Source: Silvimonas sp. JCM 19000 (lineage in GTDB: Bacteria > Pseudomonadota > Gammaproteobacteria > Burkholderiales > Chitinibacteraceae). Taken from it: DNA of 7,865 bases. The stretch spans positions 1-7,865 of the forward strand of contig BBFD01000193.1 of NCBI GenBank assembly GCA_001313065.1. The letters are read 5' to 3'. Position 1 is the stretch's first letter; each line of letters opens with the position of its first letter. Positions 1-7,865 of this stretch are shown one piece after another. Below the pieces are notes generated by a model. It worked only from the letters and a program-made list of their open reading frames with translations. It ran no database searches and was not told where the DNA came from. Position numbers and translations under genes: made by a program.

Positions 1-361
1 CGCGCGCTTGCTCGATGACGGACTGCTGCTGCGTGAGGCTGGCCAGCACATGATCAGTGGCAGCGCGCGCGATGGCGACATTGGCCGCGGCGGAAGTCAC
101 GGCATTGACATAGTCGCGGTCATCAATGCGCGCCAACAGTTGGCCTTTGCGCACGGCTGATTGTCTTCGACCGCCAACGTGCTGATCTGGCCCGCCACGC
201 GCGGGGACACCAGGGTGAAATCAGCGCTGACATAGGCGTCGTCGGTGCTTTGCCCGCCGGATGCGTGGCAGGCCAGCGCCAGCACGGCCGCCGCGCCCAG
301 CAGCAGCACACCAAGGGCGGCCGCGATATAGCGCTTTTTTTTGCTTTGGAGATACAGACAT
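1..361 (-). CDS. EmrA/HlyD-type membrane fusion protein, N-terminal part (runs off left edge)
   Basis: This is the periplasmic adaptor subunit of a tripartite drug efflux pump, linking the inner-membrane transporter to an outer-membrane channel. The repaired protein starts MSVSPKQKKRYIAAALGVLL: a short basic cytoplasmic tail followed by one membrane anchor (about residues 11-30). Then comes the EmrA-family signature TDDAYVSADF, the biotinyl-lipoyl-like strand SPRVAGQISTLAVEDNQ and VRKGQLLARIDDRDY, and an Ala/Gln-rich stretch that begins the coiled-coil hairpin. The ATG at 361 lies 12 nt after the stop of the MFS gene, with a weak AAGG upstream, so the two are probably co-transcribed. Two indels break the frame: an extra base in the T8 run at 335-342, and one missing base near 155 (expected Q-P-V-R-K-G). 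About 120 codons are visible. The family call is secure; the substrate is unknown. Confidence 0.88.
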
Positions 362-373
362 AAGAAACAACCT

Positions 374-1965
374 TTAAGGGGAAACAGGATGCACCAGCGC
401 ACCGGGTGGATAGATACGGGTAGGCAGAAAGGGGATGAGTAGCAGCAACGCCACAGCCACCAGCGCCATCAGGCGCAATACATCGGCGGAGGCCAGCACC
501 AACGCCTGCTGCCGGATATGCGCATCCATCAGCGCCAGCAACGAGGGATGATCCAGACCTGGCAGGCTGGCCAGCTTGTTTTGCAGCAGACCCGGCACAT
601 AGGGACGGTTGCCCAACTGATCGACCAGCACATTGGAATGAAAGCGTTCGCGCAGCGTGGACACGCCTTCGGTCAAGCCGGTGCCCACCACCACGGCGAA
701 CCCTTTGACGGTGTTAAACCAGGCGGAAGCGAACGGGCCCTCCTGCGGCGTCATGCCGTTGGTGGCCAGCATCAGCAACGGCAGCACCGCCATCGGTTGC
801 GCCACAATCTGGATCAGCTGCACCGCATAAAAATGCGGGCGTATCCAGCCGAGCTCATGCTGCCGCCAAGCAGGCAAGACAGTCCGATCAAGCAAGGCCG
901 GTGGCCAGCACCCAGCGGCAATCCACTTGCCGCAGATTGCAAAGTGCAGCCACGGCGGGCAGCGCCAGCAGTTGCGGCAGCGCCACCCACAAAGCCAAGG
1001 GGGCCAGTTGCAGCGGGCGATAGCCTTGCACTTCGCTCAGATATCCCGCCGGGATGGCGGGCACGGCAACCAGCACCAGCAACACGCCGCCGAGGGTAAT
1101 CAACGCGTGGCTGAGGTTACGTCGGGCCAACAACTGGAGTTTAAAAAACGGCAGCGGGTGGAACCATTCGTTAAGCAGAAACAGCAGCAGGAGCAGCGAA
1201 CCCGCAATCAACAACAGGCAAATCAACGGTGAATCGCTCCACCCCAGCCGCGTGCCTGTTCAAAGGCCGTCACCAGCATGGCGATGGCGGGAAAACCCAA
1301 CAGCACGCCGCGCGTATCAAACTGACGGAAACGTTCCAGCCGCAGCGGGTCTTGCGGCAGCCCCCACGCCATCATGGCCACCGACAAGGCGGCCAGCGGC
1401 ACGATTTGCCAGAACAGCCAACGCCAGCCACATAGTCGGACCACAACGCCGCCAGCGGCGTGCCCAGGTTGGGCGCAAAAGTGGCGGTGAGGGCATAGGC
1501 GGCCAGGCCGTACAGCTTGATGCCGGCAGGTAGAAAACGCAGCGCCACCGTCATCAACATCGGCGGCAGGCAGCCGCCCGCCAGGCCTTGTAACGCGCGC
1601 AGCGTCAACAGCAAACCTTCTGCGCGTGCAAACGGCAAAGCCAGCCCCAACAGCGCAAAGACGCAGACAGCCGCAATGGTGAAACGCCGTAGCGTAAAGG
1701 TGCCGGCAAACCACGGCGCAAACATCATTGCCGCCACCTGCGTCACCTGATACAGCGTGCGCATCCAGCTGCCCGCATCGGCGCTCAGGCCCAGCGCGCC
1801 GCGCAAGTCGGGCATGGCTACTTCGGTGACGTGGTCGTTGAGTTGCGCCATGACCACCGCCAGCAGAACCCCCGCCAGGCCAGTCAGGATGCGGCCGCCG
1901 AAGCGAGGCGGATGCGGCGTAGCGGCCACGGGCTGCAGGTGCGCAGGAGATGCAACAGAATTCAC
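374..1965 (-). CDS. DHA2-family MFS drug exporter (EmrB/QacA type), frameshifted
   Basis: This is an inner-membrane proton-driven exporter that would work with the adjacent membrane fusion protein. The repaired gene is exactly 532 codons (531 aa), normal for the family. It is almost entirely hydrophobic helices. Family landmarks are an N-terminal helix followed by VAMPDLRGALGLS, LRALQGLAGGCLPPMLM, the APNLGTPLAALW...GWRWLFWQIVP motif, and a late NTVKGFAVVVGTGLTEGV helix. The GTG start at 1965 is chosen because GGAAG sits 6 nt upstream. Four single-base deletions are inferred: near 1430 (expected Y-V-G-W-R-W), in the C-run at 1242-1245 (expected G-W-G-W-S-D-S), near 892 and near 851. The last two are inferred because the short segment between them reads ALIGLSCLLG, a good membrane helix, only in the third frame. 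It lies 110 bp after the LysR gene and 12 nt before the fusion-protein gene. Substrate unknown. Confidence 0.9.
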
Positions 1966-2040: not shown

Positions 2041-2046
2041 TTACTC

Positions 2047-2065
2047 GCGTGCGTCTGGCGCACGC
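2047..2065 (-). terminator. GC-rich hairpin just after the LysR gene
   Basis: GCGTGCG (2047-2053) and CGCACGC (2059-2065) form a perfect 7-bp stem with a 5-nt loop, beginning about 10 nt past the repaired stop codon of the LysR-type gene. No U-tract follows in the transcript, so it is at best a weak terminator or a 3'-end stabilising hairpin. Confidence 0.35.
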
Positions 2066-2075
2066 ATCAATGCGG

Positions 2076-2985
2076 TCAGAACGCGGCGGCATCGGCCGTG
2101 CAGACCTCGCGGATAATCCGCCGCAGCCATTGATGCGCCCCGTCGTTCTGATAACGCGGATGCCAACCCTGCACCATCACCACGGTTTCCAGCGGCAGCG
2201 GCAAGGCAAAGGCGCGTGCCCGGATACCCATGCGCTGCACGGCGGCGGCCACATGTTCGCTCAGGGGCAAGATCAGTCGGAGGCTTCCAGCATGAACACG
2301 CCGGAATGAAACGTCGGCACCACCAGCGACACCTGGCGCGCCAGACCCAGCGCCTGCAAAGCCGTGTCGATCGGCCCGCTGGCGCGGCCCGGCGCGACAC
2401 GCTGATCTGGCCATAGCTGGCAAAGCGCTGCGGCGTAATTTCCGCATCAAAGATGGGGTGATCGGCGCGCGCCAGCCCGACAAACCGGGTGGTAAACAGC
2501 GTCTGTATATGCACGTCCGGGCCCATGGGCCGCATGGCGCTGATATACAGATCGACCTTGCCGTCGCGTAACACTGAATCCTCAGATTCGCTCTCGGGCG
2601 CAAAACGCAGCACCACCTGCGGCGCTTCGCTACGTACCCGGCCCAGCACGGTCTGGCCAAACGCGCTGAGGAATACATCGTTGGCATGCAGGTTGAAATG
2701 CCGCTTCAGGCTGGCCAGATCGACCGCGCGCTCGGGCTGCAACAACTGGCGCGCGCCTTCAACCGAACTGTGCACGCGCTCGCGCAAGGACAGCGCGTAG
2801 GGCGTCGGCACCATTTTGCGGCCGACTTTTACAAACACAGGATCGCCGATGGCGTTGCGGATGCGCGCCAGGGTGCGGCTCATGGCCGGCGCGCTCAGAT
2901 TCATGCGCCGCGCGGCGCCGACTACGGAGCCTTCTTCCAGCAGCACATCCAGCGCAAAGAGCAGATTAAGATCGGGTGATTGCAT
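2076..2985 (-). CDS. LysR-family transcriptional regulator, frameshifted
   Basis: This is a DNA-binding regulator with an effector-binding domain, probably controlling the efflux genes immediately downstream. After repair it is exactly 304 codons (303 aa), the usual LysR length. Residues 4-63 are the winged helix-turn-helix (DLNLLFALDVLLEEGSVVGA, then LSAPAMSRTLARIRNAIGDP and the wing FVKVGRKMVPTPYA). The rest is a periplasmic-binding-protein-like effector fold ending ALPLPLETVVMVQGWHPRYQ and WLRRIIREV, typical of the NodD/YafC-like branch. Two deletions are inferred: in the C-run at 2388-2390 (expected S-R-R-G-R-A-S-G-P) and near 2275 (expected E-A-S-D-L-I-L-P). Start: the ATG at 2985 gives the canonical N-terminus; an in-frame TTG at 2994 adds only three residues. 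Neither has a Shine-Dalgarno. It is unusual in lying upstream of its target in the same direction rather than divergent from it. Effector unknown. Confidence 0.9.
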
Positions 2986-2993
2986 GGGCCGCA

Positions 2994-2999
2994 ATTATA
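2994..2999 (-). promoter_or_regulatory. TATAAT -10 box directly upstream of the LysR gene
   Basis: A perfect TATAAT on the minus strand ends 8 nt before the ATG at 2985. No good -35 is visible at 16-18 nt spacing (GTGCGG or TGCGGC). If it is used, transcription would start at or beside the start codon and give a leaderless or nearly leaderless mRNA. That would fit the missing Shine-Dalgarno. Confidence 0.45.
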
Positions 3000-3060: not shown

Positions 3061-3625
3061 CTAAAAAAAATTCCAGCTCGCCCGCCACCGCTTCTTCCAC
3101 CGGCGCGGGCGCCAGGCGGAAATCGATGTCGCTGTCGGGCGCGGCGCACAGGCTGAGCGTCAAGCCAAAGCGCACCGCGTCATTCAGCGTAATCGCAAAA
3201 GTCTGCTGCGCGGTCGGGGCGATTTCGTTGATGTAACGCGCGCAATGGCGTTCCAGCACAAACGGTGTCGACATGGCGGCATGGCGGAACGCCACGCACA
3301 GGCTGCGATTCACCGAACCGCAAATCATATTGACCAGCTCACCCAACACATCCACCAGCGCCTGGCCTTCCAGCGCGTTGGCAGAACGGCCGCGCAAGGC
3401 CAGATGCGTGCCGGTGGCGCGGTCGGCTTCAAAGTCGAACAAGGCGATGATGCGGAACAGATAAGAAGAAATATTCAGCACCACCGCATGCCCGGGCCGC
3501 CCGCTGGTGTCGGGCCAGGCCGTGCGTTCGACCACGCAGACGTCGTCGGCGCTGGCGATGGCGTTGTCGTGGATGGATTGCTCGAACAGCGTGTAGATAT
3601 TCTCAAGCGCGCTCTGGCTGAACAT
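3061..3625 (-). CDS. CheX/CheC-like chemotaxis phosphatase domain protein
   Basis: This is a predicted cytosolic CheY-P phosphatase. The diagnostic segment is DVLGELVNMICGSVNRSL (residues 92-109). It contains E96-x-x-N99, the acid/amide pair that CheC, CheX and FliY use to attack the phospho-aspartate of a receiver. The flanks alternate strands and helices, as in the CheC/CheX fold (TFAITLNDAVRFGLTLSLCA near the C-terminus). The start ATG at 3625 is 4 nt after the preceding gene's TGA, with AGGA upstream, so translational coupling is likely. The end is defined by repair. The A8 run at 3063-3070 (T8 in the coding strand) holds one base too many. With seven, the gene ends G-E-L-E-F-F-stop at 3061 and is exactly 188 codons. 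As written it would read through to 2966 into the LysR start. Target: presumably the CheY-like protein two genes upstream. Only one ExxN motif is seen, as in CheX. Confidence 0.75.
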
Positions 3626-3629
3626 GCGA

Positions 3630-4415
3630 TCAATCCTGCTCGGCCTGGGCCATGGTGGCCTGGATCTTGTCGGCGGTGGTGCGCAGGCCGAAGACCGCGG
3701 TGCGGATCAGATTGCCGCTGGCCTGCATGTCCTGGAAGGTGGTGGTGGTGATCAGATCGTTCTTGTCCAGGTTCTGCTGGTATTGCCGCGCCACTTCGGC
3801 CGAGTTGAGCGCCAGCGCGCGCACGCCATCGGCCACCACGGCAAAGCCACGCCCATGTTCACCGGCGCGGGCGGCCTCGATGGCGGCGTTCAGCGCCAGC
3901 ATCACCACGTTTTTTTACGATGCGGGCAAACTCTTCGTTTTGCGCCTTCAGATGGCGGTTATTGGCCAGGATGCCCTGCAGTTCATCGTGCCAGCGCTCA
4001 ACGATGCGCACGATGCCGAGCAACGATTCGATGTCCTGTTTCAGCGTGGCGTGTTCAGCGGCAAACTCGCTGCGCAAGCGCCCCAACTGGTTGCGATGTT
4101 CTGCGGCCTGTTGCTCGTGCCAGCGCTGGCGCTCGCTGGCCGCGCGTTCTTGCTGCGCGCCCAGTTCGGCCTGATGCGCCTGCTGTTGCACGTTCAGATG
4201 CTGTTGCAGCGCGGCCACTTCAGCCTGTAGCGGTTGCAGCTGGCGGGCCACGTCTTCGGGCGCCAGATGTTGCATCAGCCGGCCAGACGTTGATCGCGCT
4301 CACGCAAACGTTGTTGCAACACACGGCGCTGGCCGTGCGCATGCCACGCCCAGGCCACGGCCAACAACAAGCCTGCGCTCAGACCGGCCAGCGCACTCCA
4401 CAGGGTGTTCATCAT
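3630..4415 (-). CDS. Short membrane-anchored MCP signalling-tip protein, frameshifted
   Basis: This is a chemoreceptor-like protein without a sensory domain. Repaired length is 262 codons (261 aa). Order: one membrane helix (residues 6-24, [20 protein letters not shown]), a long Gln/Glu/Arg-rich coiled coil (about 28-160), then the conserved MCP hairpin tip [20 protein letters not shown] and [10 protein letters not shown] (173-202), and a short descending helix. No periplasmic domain and no HAMP are present, and the descending arm after the tip is much shorter than in ordinary receptors. The segment before the tip ([12 protein letters not shown]) replaces the usual FQTNI. Breaks: one base missing near 4279 (expected R-L-A-G-L-M-Q-H) and one extra in the T7 run at 3910-3916 (expected I-V-K-N-V-V-M). 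Two adjacent ATGs (4415 and 4412) are possible starts, both with weak ribosome binding sites, 22 nt after the receiver gene. It may link the upstream kinase to the membrane or tune it; this is inference. Confidence 0.8.
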
Positions 4416-4437
4416 GATCAGTACCGAAACCCCGTGA

Positions 4438-4803
4438 TCAGTTAACCAGTTTCTTGAACGTAGCGACCACGGCATCGCCATTAAACGGCTTGACGATCCA
4501 GCCCTTGATACCGGCCGCCTTGCCGCGTTCTTTCATGGCCGGGCTGTTCTCGGTGGTCAGCATCACGATGTTGACGGCGCTGTTGCGCAGCTCGCCGCGG
4601 ATTTTTTTCGGCCATGGTCAGGCCGTCCATATTGGGCATGTTGACGTCGCTCACCACGAGCTTGATGCCGCTGTCGGCGCGCAGTTTGTCGAGGCCATCC
4701 TTGCCATCCACCGCCACGGTGACGCTCAGGCCAGCGCTCTTGAGAAACTCGCTGACTTCGGTGCGTACCGTGCTGGAATCATCAACCACCAGAATCTGGC
4801 CAT
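4438..4803 (-). CDS. CheY-like single-domain response regulator, frameshifted
   Basis: This is a cytosolic phospho-acceptor of 121 residues (122 codons after repair) with no output domain. The receiver motifs are complete: acid pair D8-D9 (VVDDSSTVRTEV), phospho-acceptor D53 in LVVSDVNMPNMDGL, T83 in VMLTTE, W102 at the aromatic switch position, and K105 in VKPF. The start ATG at 4803 has AAGGAA 7 nt upstream. Reaching it in frame requires one base missing near 4797 (expected M-A-K/Q-I-L-V-V-D-D), because no start codon exists in the written frame after an upstream TAA. The T7 run at 4602-4608 carries one extra base (expected A-E-K-I-R-G-E-L). It sits 45 nt after the kinase stop codon and is the obvious partner of that kinase's phosphotransfer histidine. 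The output is presumably protein-protein, as for CheY. Confidence 0.92.
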
Positions 4804-4810
4804 TGCCTAC

Positions 4811-4816
4811 TTCCTT
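4811..4816 (-). promoter_or_regulatory. Ribosome binding site that fixes the start of the CheY-like gene
   Basis: AAGGAA on the minus strand is 7 nt from the ATG at 4803. It is the strongest Shine-Dalgarno in the operon and is the argument for using that ATG even though the written frame does not connect to it. Confidence 0.7.
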
Positions 4817-4848
4817 ATTTGATTAGCTACAAAATTTAGTGCGCGCGA

Positions 4849-7212
4849 CTAGATCGTCGCCGCAGTCGAAACGCCATGAATCACCGGCGTTTCGATATGT
4901 TCAAACAGCGCTTCCGGCAAGCTGACCACGGTGCTGAAAGCGCGGAAGGCCGCGCAACGCGTTGGTCTTCAAAGCGGATAGCGATATCGCCACGCTCGCG
5001 CCGGACAAACTCCTGCACCGCATCCATGCCCACGCCGCGCCCGGAAATCTCGGTTACCACCGCGGCAGTCGAGAAGCCAGGCAGAAACACCAGGCGCGCG
5101 ATCTGTTCATCGGTTGGCTGCGCGTCGGCCGGCAACAATTGTCTGGCCCGTGCGATATCGCGGATGCGATGCAGGGCCAGACCCCGGCCGTCGTCATGCA
5201 GGGTCAGATGCACCATGCCGCCATGCGCTGCGGCGTGCAATTTGAGCGTGCCCGCCATGCTCTTGCCGTGGCCCATGCGGGTATCGGCGTCTTCAATGCC
5301 ATGGTCGAGCGCGTTGCGCATCAGATGCATAAACACGTTCTTGAGCAGCGCCGAGGCCTGATGCCGCACCACATAACCGTGATCAGCCAGCACCACACGC
5401 GGCGCCAGTTTGCCCAGCTCGGCGGCCAGCCGCGGTAGCGATTCGATGACGCTATCCAGCGTTTGCGACAAGGGTTCAGTGCCGAGCAAACGCAGCGCCT
5501 TGCGCACGGCATCGCGCGCGGCCACCAGTTCGATCAGATTGTTGGTATTGACGGTTTCCAGCCGATGCAAGGCGTCATGCACCTGGGCGCGATCGACCAG
5601 CAGATATTGCTCGCCCTGGCCGCGCCCCGGGCCTTTGCGGCCGAGGCTGACCTCATTGATGCGGGCATAGCGCTCCACACCCGCACGGACTTGCGCCAGT
5701 TCATCCAGCAACATGCGTTGATCCCATGGCAGATCCGGGCGCGGCTGGCGCAGCGCTTCGTAGCTGTGTTCCGCCTGATGCACGATGTGGGTCAGATGCT
5801 GCAAGCCGTAGGTACGGGCATTGCCCTTGATGGTGTGCATATTGCGGAACAACTGCGCAATCGCCTCGCTGTCGCCCTTGGGGTGCAAGCGGATCAGTGC
5901 CTGGTTGTCTTCAATAAAGCGCAGCGCGCTGATGATGAAATCGTGGAATTTGTCCTGACTGACCGCCAGCACTTCGCCAATGATTTCCAGCTCTTGCCGT
6001 TGCTCGCTGGCTTCAGCCGCCAGTTGGCGTAATTCGGTGACATCGCGCACGCACAACATCACGCGGCAGGTATTGCCATGGTCGTCGAGGATGGGCGACC
6101 AGTTCAGATCGAGAATTTTGACGCGGCCATCGCGCATGGTTTTTTCGATTTCGCCCACCATCAAATGCTGGTTGAACTCAAAGTTCATGGCGTCTTCGTC
6201 TATGCACGCGCCCCAGACCGCATCGATTTGCGCCAGCGTATCGGCGCCCAGCTGGGTGTTGCTGAACAACAGCGCCATCACGTCGCGGCCGGCAATATCG
6301 TCGGTCTCCAGGATGGTGGCCAGCCAGGCCGAATATTCCGGATGCACGATCTTGCCTGCCTGCACCGTCAATATGCCCTGCGGCATGTTCTGCAACATCG
6401 ACTGGATGTCGGTGGTCTTTTGCTTGAGCTGCGACGAGCTGAGCTGGATCTGCTCGATCATGGTGTTGAACGCCAGCATCGAGCGGCCAATTTCATCCTG
6501 GCGCAGCACCGGCAGGCGCTGGGTAAAGTCCTGGCTGGTGGCAACATTGCTCATCATGGTTTGCATCTGGCCGATCGGGCGCACGATCTGGCGATACAGC
6601 ATCAAACCAATGCCGCTCAGCAGCAGCACCGCCACCGCCGTCACGCCCGATAAGGTGGTGGCCGTGTTGGCCAGGCTGTGATTGAGCGCATTGATGGCGT
6701 CATCCTTGCTGCGGTTTTTTTTCTACGCGCAGCGTTTCTATTTCTTGCTCCAGTTCGCCCTGGTATTGCGCCACACTGGCAAACAGATTGGCTTCGGCGA
6801 TGTCTTGCTGGGCCGCGCGTTTGAACTTGACCGTGTCATCGATGGCGCCAAAGTAGCTGGCCACGCTTTGTTGCGCTTGCTGCACCAGCCCTTTTTGCGT
6901 CGGGTTGCTGGCCTGTTGCAACTGCAAGCTCAGCGCCTGGCGCAGCCGGTTTTGCTGCAGCGCCAGTTTGTCGGCGGCCTGCGTCAAGGTGTTGGCATCG
7001 GGCGCAAACACCAGCGCCATGGTCGCCAGTTGCACGTCCTTAAGGCCAGCCACCAGATCGGCCGAAGCCAGGGTGCTGGGCACCACGCCTTCTGTAACGC
7101 GTTTCACGTCGGCCGCATTGCGCTGCGCTTGCAGCATGGCGTAGCCCCCAATGGCGGCGATCGCGGCAAAGGTGAGCAACGTCAGCAAGATAATGCGCTG
7201 GCGGATTGTCAT
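4849..7212 (-). CDS. Transmembrane CheA-like histidine kinase (sensor-HAMP-PAS-Hpt-HATPase), frameshifted
   Basis: This is an inner-membrane sensor kinase of 787 residues (788 codons after repair). Order: TM1 (8-27); periplasmic helical bundle resembling an MCP ligand domain (28-187); TM2 (188-206); HAMP (207-262, VRPIGQM then DEIGRSMLAFNTM); PAS with PAC-like end (265-396); phosphotransfer domain with H459 in LFRNMHTIKGNARTYGL; linker; and a CheA-P4-type ATPase with N box HLMRNALDHGIE (629-640, N633), DDGRGL (673-678), PGFSTA (711-716) and GRGVGMDAV (724-732). It lacks a HisKA domain, P2 and the CheW-binding P5; the chain stops about 50 residues after the last ATPase motif. The ATG at 7212 has AGAAGGA 10 nt upstream; an ATG at 7233 lacks a good site. 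Breaks: an extra base in T8 at 6715-6722 (expected V-E-K-N-R-S-K-D) and one missing near 4954 (expected D-Q-R-V-G-A-A-F). It is the first gene of the operon. Ligand unknown. Confidence 0.92.
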
Positions 7213-7323: not shown

Positions 7324-7530
7324 TATTAAGTTTTTTTATTTAAGACGCGTAATCAAAATACTGACTTTTTTGCTTACTACCCTGCTATCACATGGGGGAA
7401 CCCGGCGTCCGGCCGCATCGCGATATCTGGCGCGGCGTGCGGACGCTATGCCGCAAATCATTGCGCGGCGGCGGTGTGTTTACGCCAGCAAACTTGCTTT
7501 CAGTAGCTGTCTCTTCTATGCATCCGTAAT

Positions 7531-7551
7531 AAAAAAAGAAATATTTTTTTT
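7531..7551. repeat. A7/T8 inverted homopolymer tract
   Basis: A7 at 7531-7537 and T8 at 7544-7551 are separated by GAAATA and can pair into an all-A/T stem. It is probably a flexible or curved upstream element for the plus-strand gene. A bidirectional terminator is less likely because there is no GC stem and both neighbouring genes point away. Confidence 0.35.
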
Positions 7552-7582
7552 CGCGCAAGACAGCATCACGGGATCGGTGTAA

Positions 7583-7597
7583 ACCGTTCATACCGTT
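7583..7597 (+). promoter_or_regulatory. Tandem ACCGTT direct repeat upstream of the histone-like gene
   Basis: ACCGTT occurs at 7583-7588 and 7592-7597, one helical turn apart (9 bp period), flanked by TAAAC (7580-7584) and GTTTA (7595-7599). It lies 34-48 nt before the start codon, where an operator could act. No regulator is known to me for this motif. Confidence 0.25.
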
Positions 7598-7630
7598 TAA
7601 CCAAGGGTGGCAAAACCCGAAGGAAGCATG

Positions 7631-7865
7631 ATGGCTCAAAGCAAAAAAACCCGCTACGACGACTGCAAAACCGAAGACCGCTATCCCCGCCAGGAATGAA
7701 AGCAGCGTGAGCGCCGCCGCTGCTGCACCAGCCCCGGCCAGCAAAACCCCTGTGACCAAATCCGCGACGGCCAAAGCTGCGCGACCAAAGCTGCGGCGAC
7801 CAAAGCTGCGGTGACCAAACCCGCCGCCACCCGCAAACCCGCCGCCCAAGCTGCTGCGACAACGA
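7631..7865 (+). CDS. Lys/Ala-rich histone-H1-like DNA-binding protein, N-terminal part (runs off right edge)
   Basis: The repaired product starts MAQSKKPATTTAKPKTAIPA and becomes a low-complexity Ala/Lys/Pro/Thr chain with TKAAA-type pentads (TAKAAATKAAATKAAVTKPA). This is the composition of bacterial histone-H1-like proteins and of the AlgP/HctB class of KAA-repeat tails. Such proteins bind DNA non-specifically and help compact the nucleoid. The ATG at 7631 is preferred over the adjacent ATG at 7628 because AAGGA (7620-7624) is 6 nt away. Two indels break it: one extra base in the A7 run at 7643-7649 (as written the frame stops after 23 codons) and one missing G near 7780. About 78 codons are visible and no globular domain is reached. 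Membership is by composition only, so another Ala/Lys-rich protein such as a phasin-like tail is possible. It is divergent from the signalling operon and probably unrelated to it. Confidence 0.7.
7771..7814 (+). repeat. Three tandem copies of a 15-bp unit in the histone-like gene
   Basis: The unit is CCAAAGCTGCGGCGA: 7771-7784 (14 nt, one G short), 7785-7799 (exact) and 7800-7814 (one C to T). Each full unit encodes one Lys-Ala-Ala-Ala-Thr pentad. The short first copy is what shifts the frame. Such repeats can gain or lose units by slippage and can also be misassembled. Confidence 0.8.

Follow-up and report, generated by a model that had tools for sequence, protein, structure and literature searches.

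A CheW-less, chemosensory-like gene cassette built around a CheA-type sensor kinase in Silvimonas sp. JCM 19000 and its relatives

CheW and the P5 domain are regarded as what makes CheA (P1-P3-P4-P5) a chemosensory kinase. CheZ docks on CheY through its C-terminal peptide, and its catalytic part is unlike CheX. According to the available extracts of the survey by Berry et al. (PMC10782961), a CheW domain is present in 100% of the 13,673 CheA sequences surveyed, and a CheW-fused sensor is treated in extracts of another paper (PMC10653840). The Flm pathway of Comamonas testosteroni (Tfp class) is described, in extracts of PMC6391922, as a second betaproteobacterial chemosensory set acting on biofilm. 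Here we analyze a cluster of four genes present in a stretch of 7,865 nucleotides (nt) of Silvimonas sp. JCM 19000 (contig BBFD01000193.1; hereafter, the window), which encode a sensor kinase, a CheY-like receiver, a protein carrying the signaling tip of a methyl-accepting chemotaxis protein (MCP) and a CheX-like protein. Unlike the Flm pathway, which has the CheW-like FlmC and the chemoreceptor FlmB, this set has no CheW, and CheX is nowhere mentioned in the extracts of the Flm paper (PMC6391922). The cluster is a real, conserved, CheW-less, chemosensory-like cassette, of which the window holds the four-gene form, and it probably constitutes a compact phosphorelay assembled from chemotaxis parts, in which a single receiver takes the phosphate and the CheX phosphatases would dock by their tails. 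No account of such a cassette was found in the open-access literature, judging by titles and the beginnings of abstracts.

The sequence-only reading of the window had proposed that four co-directional genes, separated by gaps of 4–45 nt, form a unit. The cluster lies on the minus strand, from position 7212 to 3061, and the gaps read off the window sequence are 45, 22, and 4 nt. The scan of genome contigs gave at least 80 loci, among which six clear relatives (L001–L005 and L007) were analyzed and the other 74 left out. All four genes were found clustered at 20 of the 24 relatives' loci, and were co-directional in those 20, so that the proposed unit held and no lack of conservation was met with among the relatives. 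Chance neighborhood was ruled out, the same four genes occurring together in 20 other genomes. The four remaining loci (L106–L109), whose contigs measure 3.4 to 8.7 kb, carry the kinase only, and the genome of L109 has a full cluster elsewhere (L003). The number four itself did not stand as the general case: the commoner unit consists of five genes, the fifth of which, present within the cluster at 14/20 loci, encodes a receiver fold followed by a second CheX domain ("long CheX").

The cassette shows four patterns of organization: kinase-MCP-CheX-long CheX-receiver (6 loci), kinase-long CheX-receiver-MCP-CheX (6 loci), MCP-CheX-long CheX-receiver-kinase (2 loci, one of which has two tandem kinases), and kinase-receiver-MCP-CheX without any long CheX (6 loci), to which the window belongs. 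Two different sensor kinases of the family stand in tandem by one hub at L002:7176-12364 (+). Since 14/20 relatives carry a fifth gene which is missing from the window, the latter holds a reduced form of the cassette, and, as the five-gene form is the more widespread, the absence of long CheX from six relatives may reflect a loss. In each of the six genomes without long CheX in the cluster, the pattern of the C-terminal tail described below occurs only once, and thus no displaced tail-bearing long CheX was seen in them. Two further complete five-gene clusters were identified (L128 and L129). The receiver was also detected at E ≤ 1e-40 in six records of a plasmid collection, all from Burkholderia or Caballeronia; two of these six, both Burkholderia replicons, were profiled and carry all five genes.

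The kinase shares with CheA an Hpt domain with the H-x-x-KG motif and a CheA-type P4 domain, and differs from it in having no P5 or CheW-like domain and in carrying a sensor of its own (4HB/HAMP/PAS, GAF or PAS). The nearest named relative is that of Amantichitinum ursilacus, an intact protein of 789 amino acids (aa), which is 94% identical over the piece searched. Pfam identified 4HB_MCP_1 (1e-6), HAMP (1e-10), Hpt (4e-9) and HATPase_c (3e-8) on two pieces of the window kinase, with PAS under the cut-off, in line with the earlier proposal that sensor and kinase form one chain. That proposal had also excluded CheW and P5 from the kinase, which was borne out: Pfam CheW or H-kinase_dim was matched at E ≤ 0.1 in 0/20 aligned cluster (A1) kinases, and, in the 115 of 120 listed homologs that show a G2 box, the chain continues for 52–104 residues after it, vs. 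185 in E. coli CheA. H-kinase_dim (P3) is, according to the extracts of PMC10782961, often missed by HMMER. Lacking a CheW domain, the cassette kinase falls outside the CheA set surveyed there. Among the 120 listed homologs, which include pieces, the Hpt histidine motif was present in 118, the N box in 115, the G1 box in 114, the G2 box in 115 and the F box in 89, and Pfam Hpt was matched in 20/20 cluster kinases. The sequence matches in the PDB with E below 1e-20 were all CheA, as were the ten best. The AlphaFold2 model of the Amantichitinum kinase has a mean predicted local distance difference test (pLDDT) score of 80.1 and a predicted template modeling (pTM) score of 0.39, so that its domain arrangement is not trustworthy; Foldseek placed CheA P3P4 4xiv and P4 1i58 (30% identity) at ranks 3 and 4, and two short helices precede P4 in the model, partly in a low-confidence stretch.

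The fusion of a sensor to the kinase held among the relatives, but the type of sensor is not constant. The 4HB domain was found in 20/20 A1 kinases at E ≤ 0.1; GAF occurs in L107, L109, L126, and L127, the L129 kinase has PAS without HAMP, and that of L108 has neither GAF nor PAS. At L007:6746-8980 (-), a 744-aa PAS/HATPase_c kinase, distantly similar to the cassette kinase (28%), is encoded on the strand opposite to the cluster, at a distance of about 1 kb.

Conservation within the cassette is highest for the receiver: the Amantichitinum ortholog (L114) shares 71–91% identity with its counterparts in 19 other genomes, and the acidic pair, the phosphorylatable Asp, the Thr and the Lys are invariant in 20/20. 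The small CheX is 30–52% identical to its Amantichitinum ortholog. Like the CheX/CheC phosphatases, the cassette proteins have one ExxN motif, conserved in 20/20 small CheX orthologs plus 24/24 homologs and in 14/14 long CheX, with E and N invariant in 36 aligned long CheX sequences, and the CheX fold is predicted for the long protein. They differ from these phosphatases in their C-terminal GELELF tail and, in the long form, in the fusion of CheX behind a receiver fold. The long CheX has about 320 residues (one is cut at its start) and matched Pfam CheX at E 6e-9 to 1e-10 in the three proteins scanned. Its model (pLDDT 79.5, pTM 0.75) retrieved CheX 3hm4 with Foldseek at E 3e-8, and its front half ArcA 1xhf and Spo0F 6ifh at E about 6e-4.

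The C-terminal tails show a high degree of conservation. All 20 small CheX orthologs terminate in GxLE[LFM]F, and all 14 long CheX in [SA]G[ED]L[ED][LM]F; the strict tail is present in 114/120 listed long CheX homologs, the other six being one residue off, and in 23/24 small CheX homologs, the remaining one being cut short. Scanning 17 genomes for this pattern before a stop codon gave 29 matches, and the reversed pattern gave none. The ends of cluster CheX genes account for 27 of the matches; of the other two, one terminates an orphan long CheX and the other no open reading frame (ORF) of 60 aa; a further, non-CheX gene bearing the tail was therefore rejected in these genomes. The orphan long CheX paralogue (L118:2270-3241, +) lies off the cluster in G065 and ends in AGELEFF. 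The kinase C-terminus was considered as a second tag and discarded, the last five residues being diverse across 120 kinases. No paper containing "GELELF" was found in the open-access literature.

Starting from the domain content, the gene linkage, the absence of P5 and CheW, the catalytic residues, the tails and the variable sensors, all of which are read in the sequences, the following process can be proposed. Within one chain, the signal sensed by the 4HB-HAMP-PAS part would control the CheA-type ATPase, and this would phosphorylate the kinase's own Hpt histidine; the phosphate would pass from the Hpt domain to the single CheY-like receiver, and would be stripped off it by the CheX-type phosphatase or phosphatases. 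The conserved GELELF tail most likely docks CheX on the receiver, by analogy with the way the C-terminal peptide of CheZ is anchored on CheY. The MCP-like hairpin, which has no QTN, is most likely a private scaffold or brake for the cassette, outside the ordinary receptor arrays, and different kinases (4HB, GAF, PAS) may feed one receiver hub, in some cases in trans. We tentatively suggest that the cassette could represent a separate class, characterized by a sensor and a CheA-type kinase in one chain, no CheW, a conserved receiver hub, interchangeable sensor kinases, two GELELF-tagged CheX proteins and a re-used receptor-tip scaffold. The family, which dispenses with CheW while retaining the CheA engine, CheX and the receptor tip, thus offers a natural test of the role of the tip without CheW. 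It also bears on what directs a phosphatase to a single CheY when a cell contains many, a question which a tail of six residues makes directly testable.

The third protein of the cassette had been read as a receptor tip. The core of the MCP hairpin (EAARxG and GRGF) is indeed retained, and is followed by a conserved KNDxxT..TFQD stretch, but this is no ordinary tip: QTN is missing in 24/24 cluster proteins vs. present in 48/49 ordinary MCP hairpins read. The latter comprise 30/30 of the best-scoring loci (three genomes), 4/4 in the cluster flanks and 14/15 low-scoring ones, the exception having QSN; 20 low-scoring loci were taken, five of which gave no hairpin, and 50 of 122 other MCP places were examined. 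The loss of E in the EVR of the tip was rejected as a general mark, since several orthologs keep it. The cluster proteins have 238–286 aa, and MCPsignal was the sole Pfam match above the cut-off in the one scanned (L114); the lengths and the alignment leave no room for a ligand-binding domain in the others. The N-terminal sequence makes a membrane anchor likely. The retained hairpin core would also suit an accessory of ordinary chemotaxis, in which CheA/CheW arrays would house the MCP-like protein, and the receiver would serve as a phosphate sink for the main CheA or as an additional CheY at the flagellar switch. The hosts have the machinery for this: cheW, cheR, and cheB are present elsewhere in 17/17 genomes tested, FliM is present in 23/23 host genomes tested, and all of the kinase-positive genomes in a sample of the order (8/8) have FliM, compared with 135/200 overall (hypergeometric p 0.04, relatedness ignored). 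Since QTN is missing throughout, the kinase has no P5, the cassette has no CheW, and a sink would presumably not need a kinase and phosphatases of its own, we regard this explanation as rather unlikely.

That no cheW, cheR or cheB accompanies the cluster had also been proposed, and none was found adjacent to it in the 17 relatives searched, the window itself covering only 7.9 kb. No cheW, cheR, cheB or FliM gene was detected less than 17 kb away from the cluster in these 17 genomes, among the CheW matches listed. The nearest copies all occur in G241, with cheW at 17 kb (among the matches listed), cheR at 21 kb and cheB at 22.5 kb; the next-nearest cheB is about 39 kb away (G001), and the others are over 70 kb away or on other contigs. 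Some of the cluster contigs used in this search are only 36–55 kb long. The distances observed, together with an ArnT-like transferase as the next gene in Amantichitinum, are what would be expected of a non-motility circuit acting on biofilm, exopolysaccharide or pili, similar to the alternative-cellular-function chemosensory pathways. The occurrence of FliM in all 23 hosts speaks against this explanation, and nothing positively tying the cassette to such an output was found, the genes around the other loci having been left out of the profile scan. We consider this explanation doubtful, to about the same degree as the chemotaxis accessory. The output of the proposed phosphorelay is possibly motility-related, a suggestion made with low confidence, the FliM link being weak.

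The distribution of the kinase is patchy and not universal. At E ≤ 1e-100 it was found in 8/200 genomes of the order sample, in 9/43 of the family of G104, and in 5/369 of the class sample (two candidates scored per genome). The kinase piece matched 2,393 proteins at E ≤ 0.001 among 7,994 scored, of which the best 120 are those listed and among which ordinary CheAs may be included; the long CheX has 1,569 homologous proteins. The hub and the kinase can be separated: G479 carries an MCP-CheX-long CheX-receiver hub without a kinase (L194:8342-11096, -) and, on other contigs, two kinases of about 1,090 residues with the organization 4HB-HAMP-GAF-Hpt-HATPase (L126:7720-11004 and L127:7464-10739), which have no partner genes on 17 kb each. 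The partnerless kinases are mostly of the GAF type (4/5 scanned). GAF-bearing family kinases without partners are found on short contigs at L109:840-3584 (-) and L107:36-2840 (-).

Several observations weigh against the phosphorelay proposed here. Six kinases have no partner on the stretch examined (L106–L109, L126, and L127). At L130:8718-11019 (+), a 300-residue sensor half with HAMP and no Hpt or ATPase immediately precedes the MCP-like and CheX genes, and the best receiver in that genome, where two kinase candidates were scored, is 50% identical; this candidate relict or kinase-free version implies that the parts of the cluster need not go together. The receiver orthologs retain canonical CheY features, and might therefore engage in crosstalk with the main kinase. 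In Foldseek, the kinase model matches a WalK model best, and not CheA. The FliM background of 135/200 in the order weakens the FliM link. The window CheX scored below the Pfam CheX cut-off (E 4e-5, 24.1 bits, cut-off 27), and its assignment to the family is supported by the ExxN of the orthologs and the fold of the long paralogue. The long CheX tails do speak for the proposal in resembling the E. coli CheZ C-terminal peptide QVDDLLDSLGF (median score 17, vs. medians of 9 for shuffled tails, with 8/120 reaching 17, 6 for internal 20-mers, with 1/360, and 5 for kinase tails, with 2/120), but the comparison with CheZ was chosen after the tails had been seen. The small CheX tails are not alike (median 7), so that the likeness is limited to the long CheX, a protein missing from the window. 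Lastly, a 19-residue Kyte-Doolittle stretch above 1.6 occurs in the first 60 residues of 18/20 MCP-like proteins, but also of 18/20 small CheX, and this test was therefore rejected as proof of a membrane anchor.

The genes of the window are listed in Table 1, along with their neighbors. The receiver piece matched Response_reg (7e-12) and the MCP-like piece MCPsignal (1e-19) in Pfam; among the NCBIfam matches listed (25 of 97 for the receiver), none reached its cut-off, and Rfam and tRNA scans of the window gave no matches.

Table 1. Features of the window, with coordinates on the 7,865-nt stretch.
Feature	Position	Strand	Basis
Sensor kinase, 4HB-HAMP-PAS-Hpt-short P3-like stretch-HATPase_c (CheA P4 type), no P5	4849..7212	-	Pfam, tblastn, intact relative
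Single-domain CheY-like receiver, 121 aa in intact relative	4438..4803	-	Pfam, tblastn
Coiled-coil protein, probably membrane-anchored, with terminal MCP signaling hairpin without QTN	3630..4415	-	Pfam, tblastn, alignment
CheX-like protein, ExxN (ELVN), C-terminal tail GELEFF	3061..3625	-	Pfam below cut-off, ortholog ExxN and tail
LysR-type regulator	2041..2994	-	
MFS transporter pieces, and weak biotin-lipoyl-like membrane fusion protein	97..1965	-	Pfam MFS_1, E 1e-12 (1372..1965), for the transporter
Gly/Ala-rich ORF	7388..7849	-	no Pfam match

Each of the four genes has at least one frame break, and the ORFs listed are only pieces of them. Tblastn with the Amantichitinum proteins recovered three pieces each for the kinase and the MCP-like gene, and two for the receiver. 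The kinase is broken near 6722-6715 (a run of A) and near 4960-4950, and the MCP-like gene near 4278 and at a run of A (3916-3910). The first codons of the receiver are, as judged by eye, out of frame near 4800, and a second break coincides with a run of A at 4608-4602, while a frame slip at a run of T (3070-3063) extends the CheX ORF to 2966, past its real end. With all four frames broken and the long CheX missing, the window copy might be taken for a decaying, non-working remnant. Most of the breaks, however, coincide with runs of A or T, and the neighboring LysR and MFS genes are fragmented too. The same CheX, identical to the window reading through the tail GELEFF, has an intact frame in another record (P0242, a contig of 112,333 bases), and the six relatives also without a fifth gene (L100 and L113–L117), in which the tail pattern occurs once only, have open frames. 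Decay is thus very improbable, and the breaks are most likely sequencing errors, with a pattern like that of an uncorrected long-read assembly.

Beyond the cluster, the window extends over the LysR and MFS genes in one direction and for 0.65 kb in the other, where the Gly/Ala-rich ORF lies upstream of the kinase. The frame of the LysR-type regulator, which adjoins the cluster, is likewise in pieces, and the frames of the MFS transporter and of the putative membrane fusion protein are broken. In Amantichitinum, the ArnT-like transferase, encoded on the opposite strand, takes the place of the window's LysR gene.

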